64,000 nt of DNA from Saprospiraceae bacterium. GTDB taxonomy: Bacteria; Bacteroidota; Bacteroidia; Chitinophagales; Saprospiraceae. Position numbers and translations under genes: made by a program. The stretch's first letter is position 1. Every line of letters begins with the position of its first letter. Location of the stretch: the NCBI GenBank assembly GCA_958295895.1, contig CATQHI010000003.1:124001-188000 (forward strand), written 5' to 3'. Below the pieces are notes generated by a model, which was not told where the DNA came from, searched no databases, and was given only the letters and a program-made list of their open reading frames with translations. This document shows, in pieces, positions 3,343-27,216 of the stretch.

Positions 3343-4334
3343 GCCGCAAGGTAAAAATTATCACTGCCCCGTTTCTTAGTTGTTCAGAGCTCCAGTCGTA
3401 GTCCAGGTAGCTGATTTCCTTGCCATCAGGGATGTCCGTCGTCAGGTATTTATTCAAGTATTGCCGCACCTCGCCAAAATCCTCGCCGTACCAGTCGAAA
3501 ATAGGGACACCCGTACCACCTCCTCCTGCGTAACGTTGAGTGCCTCGTCGTTGATGAAGCTCCGTGCGCGTTGATCCAGCAATTGATCCAGGTTCTGGGC
3601 GGTAAATGCCTTATTGGGCAGCGGCGGACAGCTCCGGGCCGCGCACTACCAGGGCGAAGTGAATGCGCGGCTCGCGGTAGGTAGGCCGGATGATTTCGTG
3701 CTCGATTTGATTGAGGCTGTACGTTTTGCCTGCTAGTGCGATCCATTTTTTGTCCCAGGGCTCATTTATCTCGCGGATGCTCTCCAGTGGCCAGTTGTCT
3801 AGAATCAACTTGATGGTGTAGGCATTGTAGGTGTTGATCCAGTACGCGAGGGATTCATCGCGACTCCAGTCCTCACCGGGCGTCTCCTCGGCCAGGGTGG
3901 CTAGGTACGCGTCCAGTGCAGCTTCGTCGTTGCGAAAGCCGACATAATCTACCCTTCCGGCGGCGCTGACGTGCTTGCGCAGTAGCTCATCCCAGGCCGT
4001 GTGCTCGGGGGCGCTGCTCACGACGGGTGGGGCTTCCACGGCGGCAGGGGGGGGCGGGGACGCCGGTGCGGGCGTTGGTCGGGGGAGGCGGAGCCACGGG
4101 GGTGGGGGCGGGAGTCACCGCGCGTTGGGGGGCGTCGTTTGCGGGCACTTCCGGATTCTTCTCCAGGGTGTACTCGATTTGGTCGGAGGCTACGGTGTCC
4201 TCGGTGATGGGTAGGGCACCTAGATCCTCAGTCCGGGTAGTCGACGCGGCGGGCGGCGGGGGGCCATCCGCACAGGAGGAGGTGGTCAGTAGCAGGAGTA
4301 GCAGACAGGTGGGAAGGGAAGGTAGCGTAGCCAT
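3335..4334 (-). CDS. DUF547 domain lipoprotein (reading frame broken three times)
   Basis: Function of DUF547 is not known. From ATG 4334 the product begins MATLPSLPTCLLLLLLTTSSC, a lipoprotein signal with lipobox TSSC, then a proline/alanine-rich linker, then the DUF547 domain (WDELLRKHVSAAGRVDYVGF, SLAYWINTYNAYTIKLIL, IRPTYREPRIHFALV, CAARSCPPLPNKAFT, LNVTQEEVVRVSPIFDWYG). These blocks lie in different frames: one C too many in the 8-base run at 4047-4054, one extra base near 3645, and one missing C at 3504-3506. Corrected length is about 330 residues. The stop lies 8 bases inside the GH31 start, so the two are translationally linked. Each frame change leaves conserved residues intact, which argues for sequence error or a very recent pseudogene. 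Confidence 0.8.
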
Positions 4335-4381
4335 GGTAACCAAACGCATGCGGCCGGTGGCTGGGTTCACGCCAATAAAAA

Positions 4382-4405
4382 GACCCACGCCAAAAGGCGT
4401 GGGTC
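4382..4405 (-). terminator. Rho-independent terminator T1
   Basis: Perfect 10-bp stem GACCCACGCC/GGCGTGGGTC with a 4-base AAAA loop (plus strand); on the minus strand it is followed by TTTTTATTGG. It sits 48 bases upstream of the DUF547 start, so it would stop minus-strand transcripts before that operon, or act as an attenuator. It is the last of three similarly placed terminators. Confidence 0.8.
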
Positions 4406-4422
4406 GACATAAAGCTTTCTAA

Positions 4423-4452
4423 CTACCATAATAACAAAAGGATACGGCGCAT
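4423..4452 (-). CDS. Possible 9-codon leader peptide before terminator T1
   Basis: ATG at 4452 opens MRRILLLLW and stops at TAG 4423-4425, 17 bases before the stem of terminator T1. A short basic start with four leucines and a tryptophan next to a terminator resembles an attenuation leader, but no antiterminator pairing was found and the downstream operon (DUF547, GH31, ribE) has no leucine or tryptophan link. It may be chance. Confidence 0.15.
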   Translation of the reverse strand: MRRILLLLW

Positions 4453-4629
4453 ATCACCGTTAAAAAACTGTCTTTAGCCGATCGCCGTCAGTACGGTCGA
4501 TCGCTACAACCGAAAAAATTGGGGGGTTAAAGGAGCGTACTGGAATAAGTTCTTTGGGTGTTGGGTACACCAGGAAAACGAGGTGGCCCCGGTGCCAGTA
4601 CCCCCATTTACGTGGGGTAGGGGAGCAAA

Positions 4630-4826
4630 ATAAAAAAGGCCCCCACCGCAGTGGGTGGAGGCCGCAACATTACACTTTCTAACTACCGTAAAATAAGCCG
4701 TCGATCGGGTGGCCCGATCAAGATGTAGACTGATAACGGAAGGTAATAGGTAGAGCTTCCGCATGCAGTAAAGGTGAAGGGTTTAGGTTTATTACAAGGC
4801 CCGATGTAAGGAATTCCTTCCATCGT
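4630..4826 (-). ncRNA. Candidate small transcript, unit 2 of the tandem array
   Basis: A -7-like box TATCTTTG (minus strand, 4839-4832), matching the Bacteroidota TAnnTTTG consensus, lies 23 bases downstream of palindrome H2. Transcription from about 4826 would end at T2, giving an RNA of about 195 bases. It contains strong hairpins (GATCGGG-CCA-CCCGATC and CGGAAG...CTTCCG). A 46-codon frame (ATG 4823 to TAG 4683) begins MEGIPYIGPCNKP and resembles no family I know. The product could be an RNA or a small protein. Confidence 0.3.
4638..4663 (-). terminator. Rho-independent terminator T2
   Basis: Ten-base arms GGCCCCCACC and GGTGGAGGCC with one mismatch and a 6-base loop; on the minus strand followed by TTTTTTATTTTG. 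Only minus-strand use makes sense because the A-tract lies on the left of the hairpin. Confidence 0.7.
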
Positions 4827-4890
4827 TACGACAAAGATAACGGCCGGGTCTGGGGCCGAACACCCCACGGCCGTGGGGCGGGGGGGGAAA

Positions 4891-5095
4891 TAAAAAAGAC
4901 CCGCACGTTGCACCGTACGGGTCTAATAAGTCTTTAAGTCTATTCTACTGAGAAACTGAGAAACTGAGACGAATCGCGTCCGCTAACAAACACTTCGAAA
5001 TAAAGGCGTGCGAATAAAAGTCCACACTCCCGTTCAAAAATAGGTTTAAAAATGAGAGACACAATATCGACGCGACAACATTTTCCCGCCGTCGA
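4891..5095 (-). ncRNA. Candidate small transcript, unit 3 of the tandem array
   Basis: A -7-like box TACTTTTG (minus strand, 5108-5101) lies 22 bases below palindrome H3, matching the geometry of unit 2. The predicted transcript of about 205 bases ends at T3 and includes a short tandem repeat CTCAGTTT CTCAGTTT CTCAG (4947-4968). Frames through it are not convincing as proteins. The call rests on promoter-like and terminator signals only. Confidence 0.28.
4898..4923 (-). terminator. Rho-independent terminator T3
   Basis: Arms GACCCGCACG and CGTACGGGTC (one mismatch) with a 6-base loop, followed on the minus strand by TTTTTTATTTCC. Confidence 0.7.
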
Positions 5096-5146
5096 TGTGA
5101 CAAAAGTAAGGTACAGTAAGGAATATAGCACCCCACAACCGTGGGG

Positions 5147-5424
5147 TTTGAAAGGTTTGGACGCAATATTCTTCCACTGATTTCTACGCTGTTTTTGATC
5201 CGTGTAGGCAAATAAATAACGTCAATCAACCAATTTCATCCACTTATCAGCACCATAATTCGTTTTAGCTAAAAATTATGTGATGTAATTAAGATTTTTG
5301 GGATGACGAGATTTGCAACATAAAAATTTTGATTTTTTCTGTTTTTCTTCAATTCCTGGCTTCTTTCACAGCCATACACTGTTGTCAGCGCAGCGTATAT
5401 TAGGATTCGTAAAACCATCCCACC
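5147..5424. other. AT-rich intergenic region, no gene seen
   Basis: This stretch is clearly richer in A and T than its surroundings (for example 5262-5340) and lies between the tandem array and the plus-strand outer-membrane gene at 5425. It most likely holds divergent promoters, but no clean TTTG-N19/20-TAnnTTTG pair was found. No convincing frame or RNA fold is visible. Confidence 0.4.
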
Positions 5425-6160
5425 GTGCGCCTCCACCCGTGTTCACCCATCCTGCTGCTTGCCTTAGTCACGGCGCTTAGCACGCTACTGCCCGCACAGC
5501 AGGCTTTCGATCCTACTCCGGTACGCGAACCCGATGGACTGGCCATAACCTGGAGCCCGCTCAGCATGCTTACTCTGCGCGAGCGGTACACGCTGGGTAT
5601 GACGCTGACCGGGGGGCGGTGGGCCTACGTGATGGAAGCTGAGTACGGCGGGGGTATTCTTCCCACGATCATAAACGACGACGATCACGTATACCGCCTT
5701 GCCGGAGCACGGATCGAGGCGCGGTACGAGCTCTGGGGCCCCGATCCGATCTTCGTACAGCGGCGCTGGCACTACGTGGGCCTGGAAGTAGGTTACCGGA
5801 ATTACCACCGGGAACTCTTTGACCGGGACTACGTAGCAGCGGCCGACGTGAAAATTAGTTTCGACCGGGCCATCCAGACCTTTACGCGCTACGAGGCCAT
5901 CGTGAACTACACCCTGCGTCTGCCGGTAAGCGACCGCTTGTGGGTCGAAGGATTTACGGGATTAGGCGTTGCGCTGCGCACCGTGGACTACCGGGATGCC
6001 ATAAATCAACGCGAAACCGACCCTTTTTAAGGAAACCATCGCATCAATAATCTTTCCCGGTTTGGGACTGTACGATGATACACTACCGGAGGGCACTCGG
6101 TTCGTGCCCGCCTACCGCCTCGGCTTCCGGGTGAGTTACTTGCTGAGTCCGGCTAGGTAG
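5425..6160 (+). CDS. Secreted, probably outer-membrane protein of unknown function (one frameshift)
   Basis: Starts at GTG 5425 with signal peptide MRLHPCSPILLLALVTALSTLLPAQQ. The mature part has alternating hydrophobic/polar strands and many aromatic residues (RLAGARIEARYELWG, RRWHYVGLEVGYRNYH, FVPAYRLGFRVSYLL), typical of a small outer-membrane barrel or DUF3575-like protein. The frame stops at 6028-6030 because the run at 6024-6028 has five T; with four T it continues DPFKETIASIIFPGLGLYDD and ends at TAG 6158-6160, about 244 residues in all. The end overlaps the convergent thioredoxin gene by 25 bases. I do not recognise a named family. Confidence 0.65.
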
Positions 6161-6659
6161 TCCTGAAAGCTCTGGGTTTTCCAGTGCCGCTCCTGATGTA
6201 CCGAAGTTCGTGGATGTAGCGCTCGGCGGGTTTGAAGCCCGGACTGATCGTGATCCGGTTGCGCTGCTCGTCGAGGTACACCACGCTGGGGTAGCTCATC
6301 TGCCCGTCTAGGAGGGCAACGGCCAGGGCGTGCACGCCGCGGCGGCCGTTGTTCGGGTCGTACTTGAAGGTGTGATTGTCGTACACGATGTCCTCGGTTT
6401 GCTCCGCATTGAGCTTGACGGCGTAAAAATTGTCCGCGATGTAGTGGGCGATCTGTTTTTCGGAGAACACCTTCTTGTCCATCTGCTTGCACCAGCCGCA
6501 CCAGTCGGTGTACACATCGACCAGCATCGGCTTAGGTTCGGCGGCCTGTCGTTGCATGGCCTCCTCCCAGCTCAGCCATTCTACCTGCGCGGTAAGGGGG
6601 AGAGCAAGGAAGACAAGGAGGGGCAGGAAAAACTTCACGGTCAGTGCTTTAGGTACCAT
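6136..6659 (-). CDS. Secreted thioredoxin-fold protein (one frameshift near the C-terminus)
   Basis: Signal peptide KFFLPLLVFLALPLTAQ, then a thioredoxin fold with active site DWCGWCKQMDKKVF, so a periplasmic thiol-disulfide protein of the DUF255/thioredoxin-7 kind. The uninterrupted frame ends at 6153 in an unusual tail. One missing C near 6198 (ATCAGG for ATCCAGG) would restore the usual ending ERHWKTQSFQDYLAGLSK, stopping at 6136, for about 174 residues. It follows the PorP/SprF gene by 35 bases on the same strand, suggesting co-transcription. Its partner proteins are unknown. Confidence 0.82.
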
Positions 6660-6694: not shown

Positions 6695-7766
6695 TTAAAA
6701 TCTCGGGCAGGGCACGGCTTCATCGTCTTCACTCTGGCCGGTGTACGATACGCTAAGCTCAAACGCCCCCCGGTGGCGGGAGCTTACCTCCTGGGGGTTG
6801 ACGCCTACGTCGTAACTGAGTCCGAAAAGAAAGCCGCTTATCTCCAGTCCGACCAGCGCGGTGAGGCTCTCGGGCCCGAAGCCGTCCTGGTTTTTGACGC
6901 CCCGCACCCAGCCTCCGAGATGGATGGCACTGGCAGCCGCGTCGCCAGTCAGCAGCCGGACATTCGAGCCGGCCTGTAGCATCGCGTGGGGGCCCTGCTG
7001 AGTGTAGTAAAGTCGCGGAGAAACCTCGGTATTGATGCCGGTAGGAATGCGAAAGTTTACGTAAGCGCTGTAGCGCCGGTACAGCGTATTGGTCACTTCT
7101 ACCTCATCCCCTGCCGTTACGGAGGCATAAAAGCTCTGTTCGGGTGTAGTGAGTGGTGGTGTATGGCCGCCCCCAGTAGGTAGCCCGTCTGGCGGCGGGT
7201 GGGGGAGCGGCTGTAGTTGATTCCGAGTTGGTAGTCACCGAAGGCGACGCTGTTTTCCGGAAGCGCCTCCCGCGTCGAGCGGGGCACGAAGGCCGTCAGG
7301 CCGTTGAACTCGTCCTCGAAAAGGTGAGGTCCCCGTAACCAACGTTGCGTTGTACGATGCCGGCCTGCCCGCCCAGGCTAAGCACTTTCTCGCCGCGGGC
7401 ATCCAGCGTTTTGTGGAAGGCGGCTGCCACCATGGCGTGGTTGGTGGTAAAGCCCACCTCGGGCATCCGGTCATTGAGGAAGTACACGCCACCACCAAAG
7501 GCATCGCTGCCGCGCCGCTTAGGCCGTAGGGCGTAGTGGAAATCGGCGGCGAAGGCCGAGGTTTGGAAGGGGTCCTGCAGCACCTGTCCCCACTGACTGC
7601 GGTGATTGATCGCGACGCGGTAGCGGCCGGAGAAGAGTCCGGTCAGGGCGGGGTTGAGCGTGGAGGGCGAGGTGAAAAACTGCGAGAAGTAGGCATCCTG
7701 TGCCCCGGCCGGAGCGGCAAGGAGCAGGCAGGCGACCGTAAGACTGGCAAGGGCGTGGCGGTACAT
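6695..7766 (-). CDS. PorP/SprF family type IX secretion membrane protein (two frameshifts)
   Basis: Outer-membrane beta-barrel of the PorP/SprF family; members are linked to T9SS and gliding motility and many genomes carry several copies. Signal peptide MYRHALASLTVACLLLAAPAGAQ is followed by the family signature DAYFSQFFTSPSTLNPALTG and NHRSQW, and near the end by YVNFRIPTGINTEVSPRLYY. The gene is in three frames: near 7318 a T is missing from a TTTT run (restoring GDLTFFEDEFNGLTAFVPRS), and near 7155 a base is missing (restoring TPEQSFYASVTAGDEVEVTN). Corrected length is about 356 residues, normal for the family. No gliding genes are adjacent. Confidence 0.85.
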
Positions 7767-7925: not shown

Positions 7926-10117
7926 ATGTCCCGCCTGGTCATCATTTCCAACCGTCTACCCATCACCGTAAACCGGAGCGACGGCGAGCTCCATTACCAC
8001 CCCAGCGCCGGTGGTTTGGCTACCGGACTCAACTCTCTGGACGCCAGCTACAACAAAATCTGGATCGGCTGGCCGGGCCGGGATATCACCAACGAATGGG
8101 AACGTGAGGCGATTAAAACGACCTGATGAAGCGCAGCCTCGTGCCGGTGTTTCTGACCGAGCGAGAGATCGACCTATACTACGAGGGCTTCAGTAACAAG
8201 ACGATCTGGCCCCACTTCCACTACTTCACGGAGTATACTACCTATAACGACGAGATGTGGGCGGCCTACCAGGAGGTGAACTTCAAGTTCCTCCAGGCCG
8301 TGGAGGAGCACCTACGCGACGACGATATGGTGTGGGTGCACGACTACCAGCTGATGCTGTTGCCGGCGATGATCCGTGCCAAGTTTCCGAAGATTAGTAT
8401 TGGCTTTTTTCTGCACATTCCCTTTCCGAGTTATGAGGTGTTCCGTATCCTGCCATGGCGAAAGGAGATCCTGGACGGTATCCTCGGCTCCGACCTGGTG
8501 GGTTTTCACACCTTCGGCTACATGCGGCACTTTCTTTCGGCCGCCTACCGCATCACGGGCTACGAGCACGAGTTCGGCCGCCTAAGCATCGACGACCGGC
8601 TGGTGAACGTGGACGTCTTTCCGATGGGCATCGACTACGAAAAGTATGCCAACCCCGACGTTGACGCCCAGAGCGACCGCAGCAGTGGGGAGATCCGAAA
8701 ATTGCACGCCAGCCGTAAGATCATTCTGAGCGTAGACCGCCTGGATTACACCAAGGGGATTCCCCACCGCATCCGGGCCTTCGGGGAGTTTATTCGCCAC
8801 AACCCGGAGTACATCGGTAAGGTGAACCTGATCATGATCGTAGTACCGAGTCGCTCCAACGTCGACCAGTACCAGAGCCTGAAGACGGAGGTAGATGTGC
8901 TGGTAAGCCAGGTGAACTCCGAGTACAGCACCTTCGACTGGATGCCCATCCACTACTACTACCGTTCGGTGAATTTTGCTGCCCTTACTACCCTATATAA
9001 GGAAGCGGATATCGCCCTCATCACGCCGCTGCGCGACGGGATGAACTTGGTGGCCAAGGAATACGTGGCCGCCAAGGAGGAGACCAAACGCGGGGTGCTG
9101 ATCCTGAGCGAGATGGCCGGAGCCGTCTACGAACTCAACGACGGGGCCATCACGGTCAACCCCCAGAGTAGCCGCGATATCCAGCAGGCCCTGGTGGAAG
9201 CCCTGGAGATGCCGCTGGAGGAGCAGGAGCACCGGCTGCTACAGATGCAGGAGAAGCTGCGGCAGTACGACGTCAAGCACTGGGCCGCTACCTTTATCAA
9301 AGAACAGCAGAAACTACAACAGAAGAATAAGATGCACCACACCACCCACCTGAGCGGCGAGGCCCTCGACGCCGTGGCCGAAAGTTACGAGCAGGCCGAA
9401 AAGCGCCTACTGTTTGTCGACTACGACGGCACCCTCATGGACTTCGATCCCGATCCCCAGGCCGTGAGCCCCGACGACGAGGTCCTCGACGTGCTCGCCA
9501 AACTGGCCGCCGACGCCCAGAATACCGTGGTGATCAACAGCGGGCGCGACAAGACCACCCTGCAGAAGTGGCTCGGCCACCTGCCGGTACACATGGCCGC
9601 CGAACACGGGGTGTGGATGAAGGAAAGCGGCAAGTGGGCCCTTAACCCCAACGTCGTTGACGGCTGGAAACCCAAGGTGCGCGAGCTGCTGGAAAACCTG
9701 GTGAGTCGCACCCCCGGCTCCTTCATCGAGGAAAAGGACTATAGCCTGGCCTGGCACTACCGGAACATTGACCGCGACCTGGGCAACAAGCGGGTGCGGG
9801 AGTTCCGCGATATGCTCACCTACCTGATCCAGAACCAGGACCTCCAGGTGCTGGAGGGAAATAAGGTGGTGGAGATCAAAAACGCAGGCGTCAATAAGGG
9901 CAAGGCTACACAGTACTTCGTGGGCAAAGCAAAGTGGGACTTCATCCTCGGCATCGGCGATGACAGCACCGATGAGGACATTTTCCGCGCCCTGCCCGAC
10001 TGGGGGGTGAGTGTAAAGGTGGGCAAGGGACGTACCGCCGCCCGCTACAGTCTCCTTGGCGTGGCCGAGGTACGCAACTTCTTCAGCCGCCTGGCCCACA
10101 GCACCCAAAAAGCCTGA
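7926..10117 (+). CDS. otsAB: Bifunctional trehalose-6-phosphate synthase/phosphatase (OtsA-OtsB fusion, one frameshift)
   Basis: Makes trehalose 6-phosphate from UDP-glucose and glucose 6-phosphate, then removes the phosphate; trehalose serves as osmolyte or stress protectant. The N-terminal GT20 synthase starts MSRLVIISNRLPITVNR and includes SAGGLATGL, VWVHDYQLMLLPAMIR, GFHTFGYMRHF, DRLDYTKGIPHRI and the C-terminal TPLRDGMNLVAKEYVA. The last ~240 residues are a HAD phosphatase with LFVDYDGTLMDF and GIGDDSTDEDIF. The frame breaks at 8115-8118: AAAA where AAAAA would give EAIKNDLMKRSLVPVFL. Otherwise it would be split at 8124-8128 into a 66-residue stub and a 663-residue remainder. Followed 2 bases later by the SDR gene. 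Confidence 0.94.
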
Positions 10118-27196: not shown

Positions 27197-27216
27197 GGGC
27201 GGGCACGCCGGTGCAA
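27197..27216 (-). promoter_or_regulatory. Promoter-region motif of the deoxynucleoside kinase gene
   Basis: On the minus strand TTGCACCGGCGTGCCCGCCC, a close relative of the speA spacer element, ends 29 bases before the ATG. The -7 position that follows (TAAGTGTT) is a weak match. Confidence 0.35.

Follow-up and report, generated by a model that had tools for sequence, protein, structure and literature searches.

The closest described analogues of the units reported here are FopS and GibS, paralogous small RNAs (sRNAs) of Bacteroides which, according to excerpts of the two reports, repress mRNAs at their start regions (PMC11697453; PMC7366714). Like the present units, they are multicopy, belong to the same phylum, and have an intrinsic terminator and a shared sequence block (excerpts of PMC11697453). 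The GibS promoter carries a near-palindromic motif, PM2, at which an unknown factor is presumed to act (excerpts of PMC7366714), and the units here are also led by a palindrome. On the other hand, FopS RNAs are ~65–70 nt long, occur in 14 copies and share one 5' seed (excerpts of PMC11697453), whereas the units are ~200 nt long and have a shared 3' motif and separate cores. The elements of PM2 are centred at -10 and -30 (excerpts of PMC7366714), whereas the palindrome lies near -43, and unlike FopS/GibS the units stand in tandem in one clade behind a different, G/C-rich operator. Neither the length of 65–70 nt nor the unpaired 5' R1 seed of FopS was found in unit D, the most widespread unit, which measures ~200 nt from box to terminator and whose consensus starts with a hairpin. 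Permissive scans with Rfam 15 gave no FopS match in the window region or in five D loci; a FopS model has been deposited according to the excerpted paper (PMC11697453). On present evidence, FopS/GibS and the units do not appear to be homologous.

Other comparable systems are sets of sibling sRNAs under one regulator, whose promoters and terminators resemble each other as they do here. NgncR_162/163 of Neisseria, which belongs to another phylum, is such a pair, and PrrF1/PrrF2 and LhrC are further examples in other phyla. However, the divergence between siblings is much greater here than in NgncR_162/163, PrrF1/PrrF2 or LhrC. A full-text search of open-licence literature found no paper on sRNA in Lewinella.

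Units A, B and C in the window and its relatives

The window, i.e., the whole stretch of 64,000 nucleotides that was analysed, is part of a 4.77-Mb draft genome (35 contigs) of a Saprospiraceae bacterium. Three units, designated A, B and C, form a contiguous tandem on its minus strand, within 5147–4382 (table 1). Each consists of a palindrome, a sigma-A -7 box, ~200 nt without conserved ORF and an intrinsic terminator; the box is clear in A and B and degenerate in C. The sequence-only reading had described three tandem hairpin-palindrome units here, which are real, with coordinates and spacings right within a few bases: the terminator-like hairpins, with their minus-strand U-tracts, recur at steps of 256 and 259 bases as it had held, and the palindromes, compared with ACCCCAC-N4-GTGGGGT, do so at steps of 261 and 268 rather than 264–268. 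It had also placed a TAnnTTTG box 22–23 bases below the palindrome in two units, and such boxes indeed occur in B (TATCTTTG, 23 nt below the 16-bp core) and A (TACTTTTG, 22 nt); likewise, the sequence it reported before the hairpin in two units is common to C and B (GGTAGTTAGAAAG).

Table 1. Features of the A-B-C tandem and its neighbours (window coordinates)
Feature	Position	Strand	Remark
Unit A operator palindrome, ACCCCAC-N4-GTGGGGT (predicted)	5130..5147	-	Perfect, 0 mismatches; CCCCA-N6-TGGGG in 9/9 A orthologues including the window
Unit A -7 box TACTTTTG	5101..5108	-	22 nt below 16-bp core; TAnnTTTG in 9/9 A orthologues
Unit A candidate small RNA gene, core TCTCTCATTTTTAAACCTA	4891..5096	-	5' end inferred by taking the box as -12 to -5; 3' boundary at U-tract
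Unit A terminator hairpin	4897..4924	-	ACGGTGCAACGT at top in 9/9 orthologues
Unit B operator palindrome (predicted)	4862..4879	-	1 mismatch
Unit B -7 box TATCTTTG	4832..4839	-	
Unit B candidate small RNA gene	4632..4827	-	Start inferred
Unit B shared 3' motif GGTAGTTAGAAAG	4675..4687	-	
Unit B terminator hairpin	4638..4663	-	
Unit C operator palindrome, imperfect (predicted)	4601..4618	-	2 mismatches; exact CCCCA-N6-TGGGG in 7/9 C orthologues including the window
Unit C expected -7 element position, degenerate	4571..4578	-	TAnnTTTG there in 0/9 orthologues
Unit C conserved 3' block, AGTTTTTTAACGG to GGTAGTTAGAAAGCTTT	4413..4469	-	
Unit C shared 3' motif GGTAGTTAGAAAG	4415..4427	-	
Unit C terminator hairpin	4382..4405	-	
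Thioredoxin-like gene	6153..6659	-	Upstream-side neighbour in 9/9 tandem loci; not part of the RNA system
DUF547 gene fragment	3611..4039	-	Other-side neighbour of the tandem in 9/9 tandem loci

Shuffled sequences were used to examine whether these elements exceed chance. The 2.6-kb region holds ten terminator-like sites, where its shuffled versions average 3.4. The motif GGTAGTTAGAAAG gave 2 exact matches and 5 with at most two mismatches, a count of 5 being reached in 0/100 shuffles. The loose 18-bp palindrome (at most three mismatches) taken alone was not significant in the window (9 against 5.4 expected, with 12/100 shuffles reaching 9). A candidate at 27209 (CGGTGCAACG) was rejected because it does not lie within a terminator.

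We then analysed 21 genomes of Neolewinella (formerly Lewinella). Using a covariance model of the 3' module built from 8 units of two genomes (R1), matches at E ≤ 1 were obtained in 21/21 genomes, the weak ones being mostly bare terminators (best match in G206, 0.07). The tandem itself, in the same A-B-C order, was present in nine genomes (the window's own, G006, G202, G203, G204, G207, G208, G210 and G215), with the thioredoxin-like gene on one side and DUF547/GH31 on the other in all nine. R1 matched 26 of the 27 tandem units, six of which were training units of the model, and missed only B of G207.

All nine A orthologues have the palindrome, the box, ACGGTGCAACGT in the terminator and the core TCTCTCATT..TAAACCT. 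Palindrome and box are present in eight of the nine B orthologues, both being damaged in G207, and a TCTCTCA element was read in seven, excluding the window's B and G207. The most conserved part of C is its 3' block, which is almost unchanged in 9/9 orthologues and in which AGUUUUUUAAC is able to pair over 11 bp (G-U included) with GUUAGAAAGCU. Thus, A and C, as well as D, keep their own sequence cores across species: the claim that the middle sequence is not conserved is true when paralogues within a genome are compared, and fails for the orthologues of these three units.

When 20 D units were placed on an unrooted tree, the nine genomes with the tandem clustered together in one group (support 0.997). 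The thioredoxin gene was found in 11 of the 12 non-tandem genomes, G214 (55% complete) having none at E 1e-20. Twelve thioredoxin loci of non-tandem genomes showed no R1 match, palindrome or DUF547 in the fetched flank, which extended ~1.5 kb past the gene on its downstream side, or no more than ~0.46 kb in the case of G213. The restriction of the tandem to one clade, together with its absence from these 12 loci, implies that A-B-C was gained once, or was lost or moved elsewhere.

Several features of the surroundings were also noted. An ORF of 201 aa (5425–6030, plus strand) lies between the thioredoxin-like gene and unit A in the window; it had no tblastn match in the other eight tandem loci and no Pfam match. 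Three genes in the window look split over at least two frames, i.e., DUF547 (3454–4388, minus strand), a PorP-like gene (6695–7766, minus strand) and a trehalose-phosphate-synthase-like gene (7926–10117, plus strand), which may reflect either a draft sequence with many indels or pseudogenes. In N. aquimaris, DUF547 is uninterrupted and forms one ORF (L046:1305-2258). In the same species, ~160 bases separate the A terminator from the B palindrome (L046:2867-3026), against about a dozen in the window, and this spacer looks rich in inverted repeats by eye.

Unit D and the common promoter in Neolewinella

A fourth unit, D, was found on another contig of the window's genome, adjoining a cca-like gene whose product has a poly(A)-polymerase head, an RNA-binding domain and an HD domain as in tRNA nucleotidyltransferases. 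It consists, in order, of ACCCCACGGTTGTGGGGT, 23 nt, TATCTTTG, ~200 nt containing GGTAGTTAGAAA, and a terminator. The strict 16-mer CCCCAC-N4-GTGGGG occurs at only 4 places in the 4.77-Mb genome (reversed control, 0), namely A, B, D and a site inside an ORF of more than 900 codons; considering the location of this fourth site, a role of the palindrome as regulator of ordinary genes was rejected. The same genome contains exactly three copies of GGTAGTTAGAAA, in B, C and D (control, 1). As a family marker on its own this 12-mer was discarded, since it occurs in 66/199 family genomes and control matches appeared as common by eye; the copy in G116 overlaps an ORF end, and a fourth copy in G006 has no palindrome or U-tract nearby.

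Twenty D loci were extracted and aligned, and the twenty-first (G206, L109) was found through its promoter. A model of the D core (R2) had one match in each of the 21 genomes (E 5e-10 or better), always with a CCCCA-N6-TGGGG palindrome and a TAnnTTTG box. The cca-like gene was present within the fetched flank at 17/21 loci (not in L058, L062, L067 and L068). When applied to C, R2 gave E-values of 0.04 (window) and 0.006 (N. aquimaris), no better than a chance match at 0.005 (L094) in the same scan; what links C to D is therefore the frame they share, together with the 3' motif.

Outside the genus, R2 gave one weak match among 377 sampled family genomes; since the scan covered a sample, applied tighter Infernal filtering and scored 8 candidates in each genome, it may miss distant relatives. 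This match (G238, E 0.0021) was judged to be due to chance, as it lies in AT-rich sequence with no visible palindrome. A pattern scan of genome contigs yielded 20 loci, of which 17 are labelled Neolewinella or Lewinella and one "Bacteroidia bacterium"; the other two, in a Prevotella MAG (L090) and a Proteobacteria MAG (L094), have no operator. The plasmid collection gave no match. In the family sample, the strict promoter pattern was found in 2/199 genomes, both Neolewinella, and is not sensitive because it missed G116 and G193, two other genus members among the 199.

The sequence-only reading had asked whether other loci carry the palindrome plus TAnnTTTG. Searching for CCCCA-N6-TGGGG followed at 19–27 nt by TAnnTTTG, which covers palindrome sites with a box, we detected 41 sites in the 21 genomes and none with the reversed pattern. 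By reading, 21 of these belong to D, 17 to A or B and 2 to a further type ("E"), and one (in G205) precedes an ORF. With 40/41 sites before terminator-ended units, the operator would be nearly exclusive to the RNA family within the reach of this pattern. By unit, the box matches in 21/21 D, 9/9 A, 8/9 B and 0/9 C, and the terminators were recognized by scan in the window and by alignment in relatives. Most genomes of the genus have one or four members, and two genomes have two.

The single site read as preceding an ORF rather than a terminator (L108, G205:C14:1025597) has a leader of ~170 nt. The E units (L119/L136, G200:C41:40664; L116/L137, G213:C176:30481) appear to be a fifth operator-driven, terminator-ended type. 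The E RNA holds AAGCTTTCTGACATACCA, which nearly matches the reverse complement of GGTAGTTAGAAAGCTT, the 3' motif found in the other RNAs; E could pair with D, as a sponge or partner.

The geometry of the promoter is nearly fixed. In the 20 aligned D promoters, the box is TA(T/C)CTTTG, and a C-rich spacer of 22 or 23 nt separates it from the 18-bp palindrome. Taking the box to span -12 to -5, the distance described in an excerpt of PMC9723704 and also used to set the start of unit A, the palindrome would be centred at about -43.5 or -44.5 in D, and the same count gives -42.5 in A and -43.5 in B relative to the inferred starts. The letters flanking N4 change together in 19/20 D promoters (pair 7/12: 10 UA, 9 CG, 1 UG), as expected for a dimer site. 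However, asymmetric letters were found at these positions in 4/9 A sites (CAC..ATG or CAT..GTG), most C sites, both E sites and 1/20 D sites, and this co-change is therefore not general.

Predicted RNA structure, known families and possible targets

RNAalifold analysis of 20 D sequences predicted a 5' hairpin that has GUGCAA in its loop, a middle hairpin whose loop is AUUGUUGGUUUU, then a GUAG/CUAC hairpin and finally the terminator. Single-sequence folds of D vary, and several add long-range closing stems which the consensus drops. For the 32 named pairs, 89.2% of cells were paired, compared with a mean of 78.7% after shuffling (0/500 as high) and 43–53% when the pairing was slid; the structure was derived from the same alignment, which makes this a self-leaning test, and relatedness inflates the shuffle comparison. 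Changes on both sides were observed in 19/32 pairs, and such double-sided changes are the stronger point for the structure of D. The segment before the middle hairpin, UUUCCAA(A/G)AA(A/G)CGU(A/G)UU, is nearly invariant in the 20 aligned sequences.

Covariation was counted for D only, and single-sequence folding scores, with terminators included, were calculated for A, B and D (z = -2.3, -3.2 and -3.4 against shuffles, respectively). In the predicted folds of C and D, GGTAGTTAGAAA is paired, and it may thus not be free to act as a seed. The loop GUGCAA, which contains the self-complementary UGCA, was also noted in the A terminators (9/9) and in the terminators of 11 of the 20 D sequences that have it in the 5' hairpin (20/20); it is possible that it is a kissing-loop or protein site.

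All Rfam 15 families were scanned permissively: the window region gave 10 matches up to E 5 and the five D loci 3 matches up to E 2, all of them sub-threshold. The best of these was Chlorobi-1 (E 0.013), which falls on the palindrome on the opposite strand. The idea that UAGAAAG pairs with the 16S 3' end was dropped, as a search of the window's own genome for GGATCACCTCCTTTCT gave no match. Start regions of the type AAAUGAGAGA are complementary to the motif of A; however, near-complete complements of TTTANAAATGAGAGA (at most one mismatch) in the nine A-bearing genomes were limited to A itself and one site in G204, and no strong target of A is shown by this search.

Candidate roles of the proposed RNA family

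We consider it probable (roughly 70%) that the units are paralogous small RNAs which are co-regulated by one dimeric transcription factor near -43 and probably act by base-pairing. Each unit would then be the gene for a non-coding RNA of ~200 nt. The factor would bind the predicted operator ACCCCA(C/T)-N4-(G/A)TGGGGT, which in A, B and D has its centre some 42.5 to 44.5 bp ahead of the inferred start, and would recruit sigma-A polymerase, which would use the TAnnTTTG box; the predicted transcript opens with a hairpin and ends at the intrinsic terminator. The common operator would unite the members in one regulon. The RNAs likely work in trans, either by pairing over short stretches with mRNAs, for which their conserved segments suggest themselves as sites, or alternatively by protein binding through the shared 3' motif GGUAGUUAGAAAGCU. 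D would be the genus-wide member, and A-B-C probably arose in one clade by duplication and divergence from it. The lack of a canonical -7 box in C, in 9/9 orthologues, counts against this reading.

A different reading of the same RNA genes, which we regard as unlikely, is that the palindrome is a repressor site, e.g., of a CsoR/RcnR-like metal or sulfur sensor, and that the RNAs are made on derepression. CsoR/RcnR operators are also G/C-tract pseudo-palindromes, such as the TtCsoR site CCCCACCCCACCTGGGGTGGGG and a Mycobacterium tuberculosis site holding CCCCCAGTGGGG (excerpts of PMC10318464), and the right half-site here lies just upstream of the -33 region. On the other hand, a centre near -43 is a usual position for an activator. 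The M. tuberculosis site overlaps -10 and -35 (excerpts of PMC10318464), which is further downstream than the 18-bp palindrome with its N4 centre near -43, and the likeness may be taken as a lead only. It is a distant possibility that D, and perhaps its kin, is instead a structured protein-binding RNA, e.g., a substitute for 6S RNA in binding RNA polymerase. Like 6S RNA, D is a ~200-nt RNA gene found once per genome across the genus, and it has conserved loops in covarying stems. RF01685 and RF00013 had no match in the window's own genome, in a comparison where RF00013 scored above cut-off in 4/14 control genomes and RF01685 in 0/14; a 6S gene may be missing from the draft or may escape the Rfam models. 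Unlike the long rod of 6S RNA with its central bubble, the D consensus is a row of separate hairpins. Moreover, 6S RNA genes do not usually have an operator of their own or divergent paralogues.

That the units encode small proteins is very improbable. ORFs of 40–94 codons can be drawn across the region, but four of these had no Pfam match at E 0.001, and no ORF is common in frame or place among the orthologues, in which the longest ORFs of the inferred transcripts vary in length, frame and place and several have none above 17 codons; the region is in this sense gene-free, as had been stated. The RNA option is thus favoured over small proteins by the absence of a conserved ORF and by the covarying stems of D. 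Chance palindromes and hairpins, or decayed MITE/REP-like repeats, would account for the weak showing of the loose palindrome in the window, and are scarcely credible in view of the orthology at fixed loci across the genus, the promoter count of 41 to 0, the covariation and the presence of only 4 strict palindromes in the window's own genome. The earlier proposal, in which one regulator controls multicopy regulatory RNAs (or small proteins), gains support, as far as sequence comparison reaches, from orthologous units with a palindrome in all and a -7 box in all but C, with RNA as the preferred option and four members instead of three.

A bolder version of the small RNA reading is a long shot: D may have founded a new class of structured regulatory RNAs in the genus, with conserved loops making tertiary or protein contacts and a global role such as that of 6S RNA, under a dedicated factor having this family as its only recognizable regulon, and one clade may have evolved three further RNAs under the same switch.

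Considered as co-regulated small RNAs, the family would be a system of paralogous RNAs under a common operator, whose expansion can be placed on one clade of nine genomes. The operator offers a concrete route to the regulator. Such a family may also illustrate how regulation can be retained by a fixed promoter-plus-terminator frame even as the RNA enclosed in it diverges.
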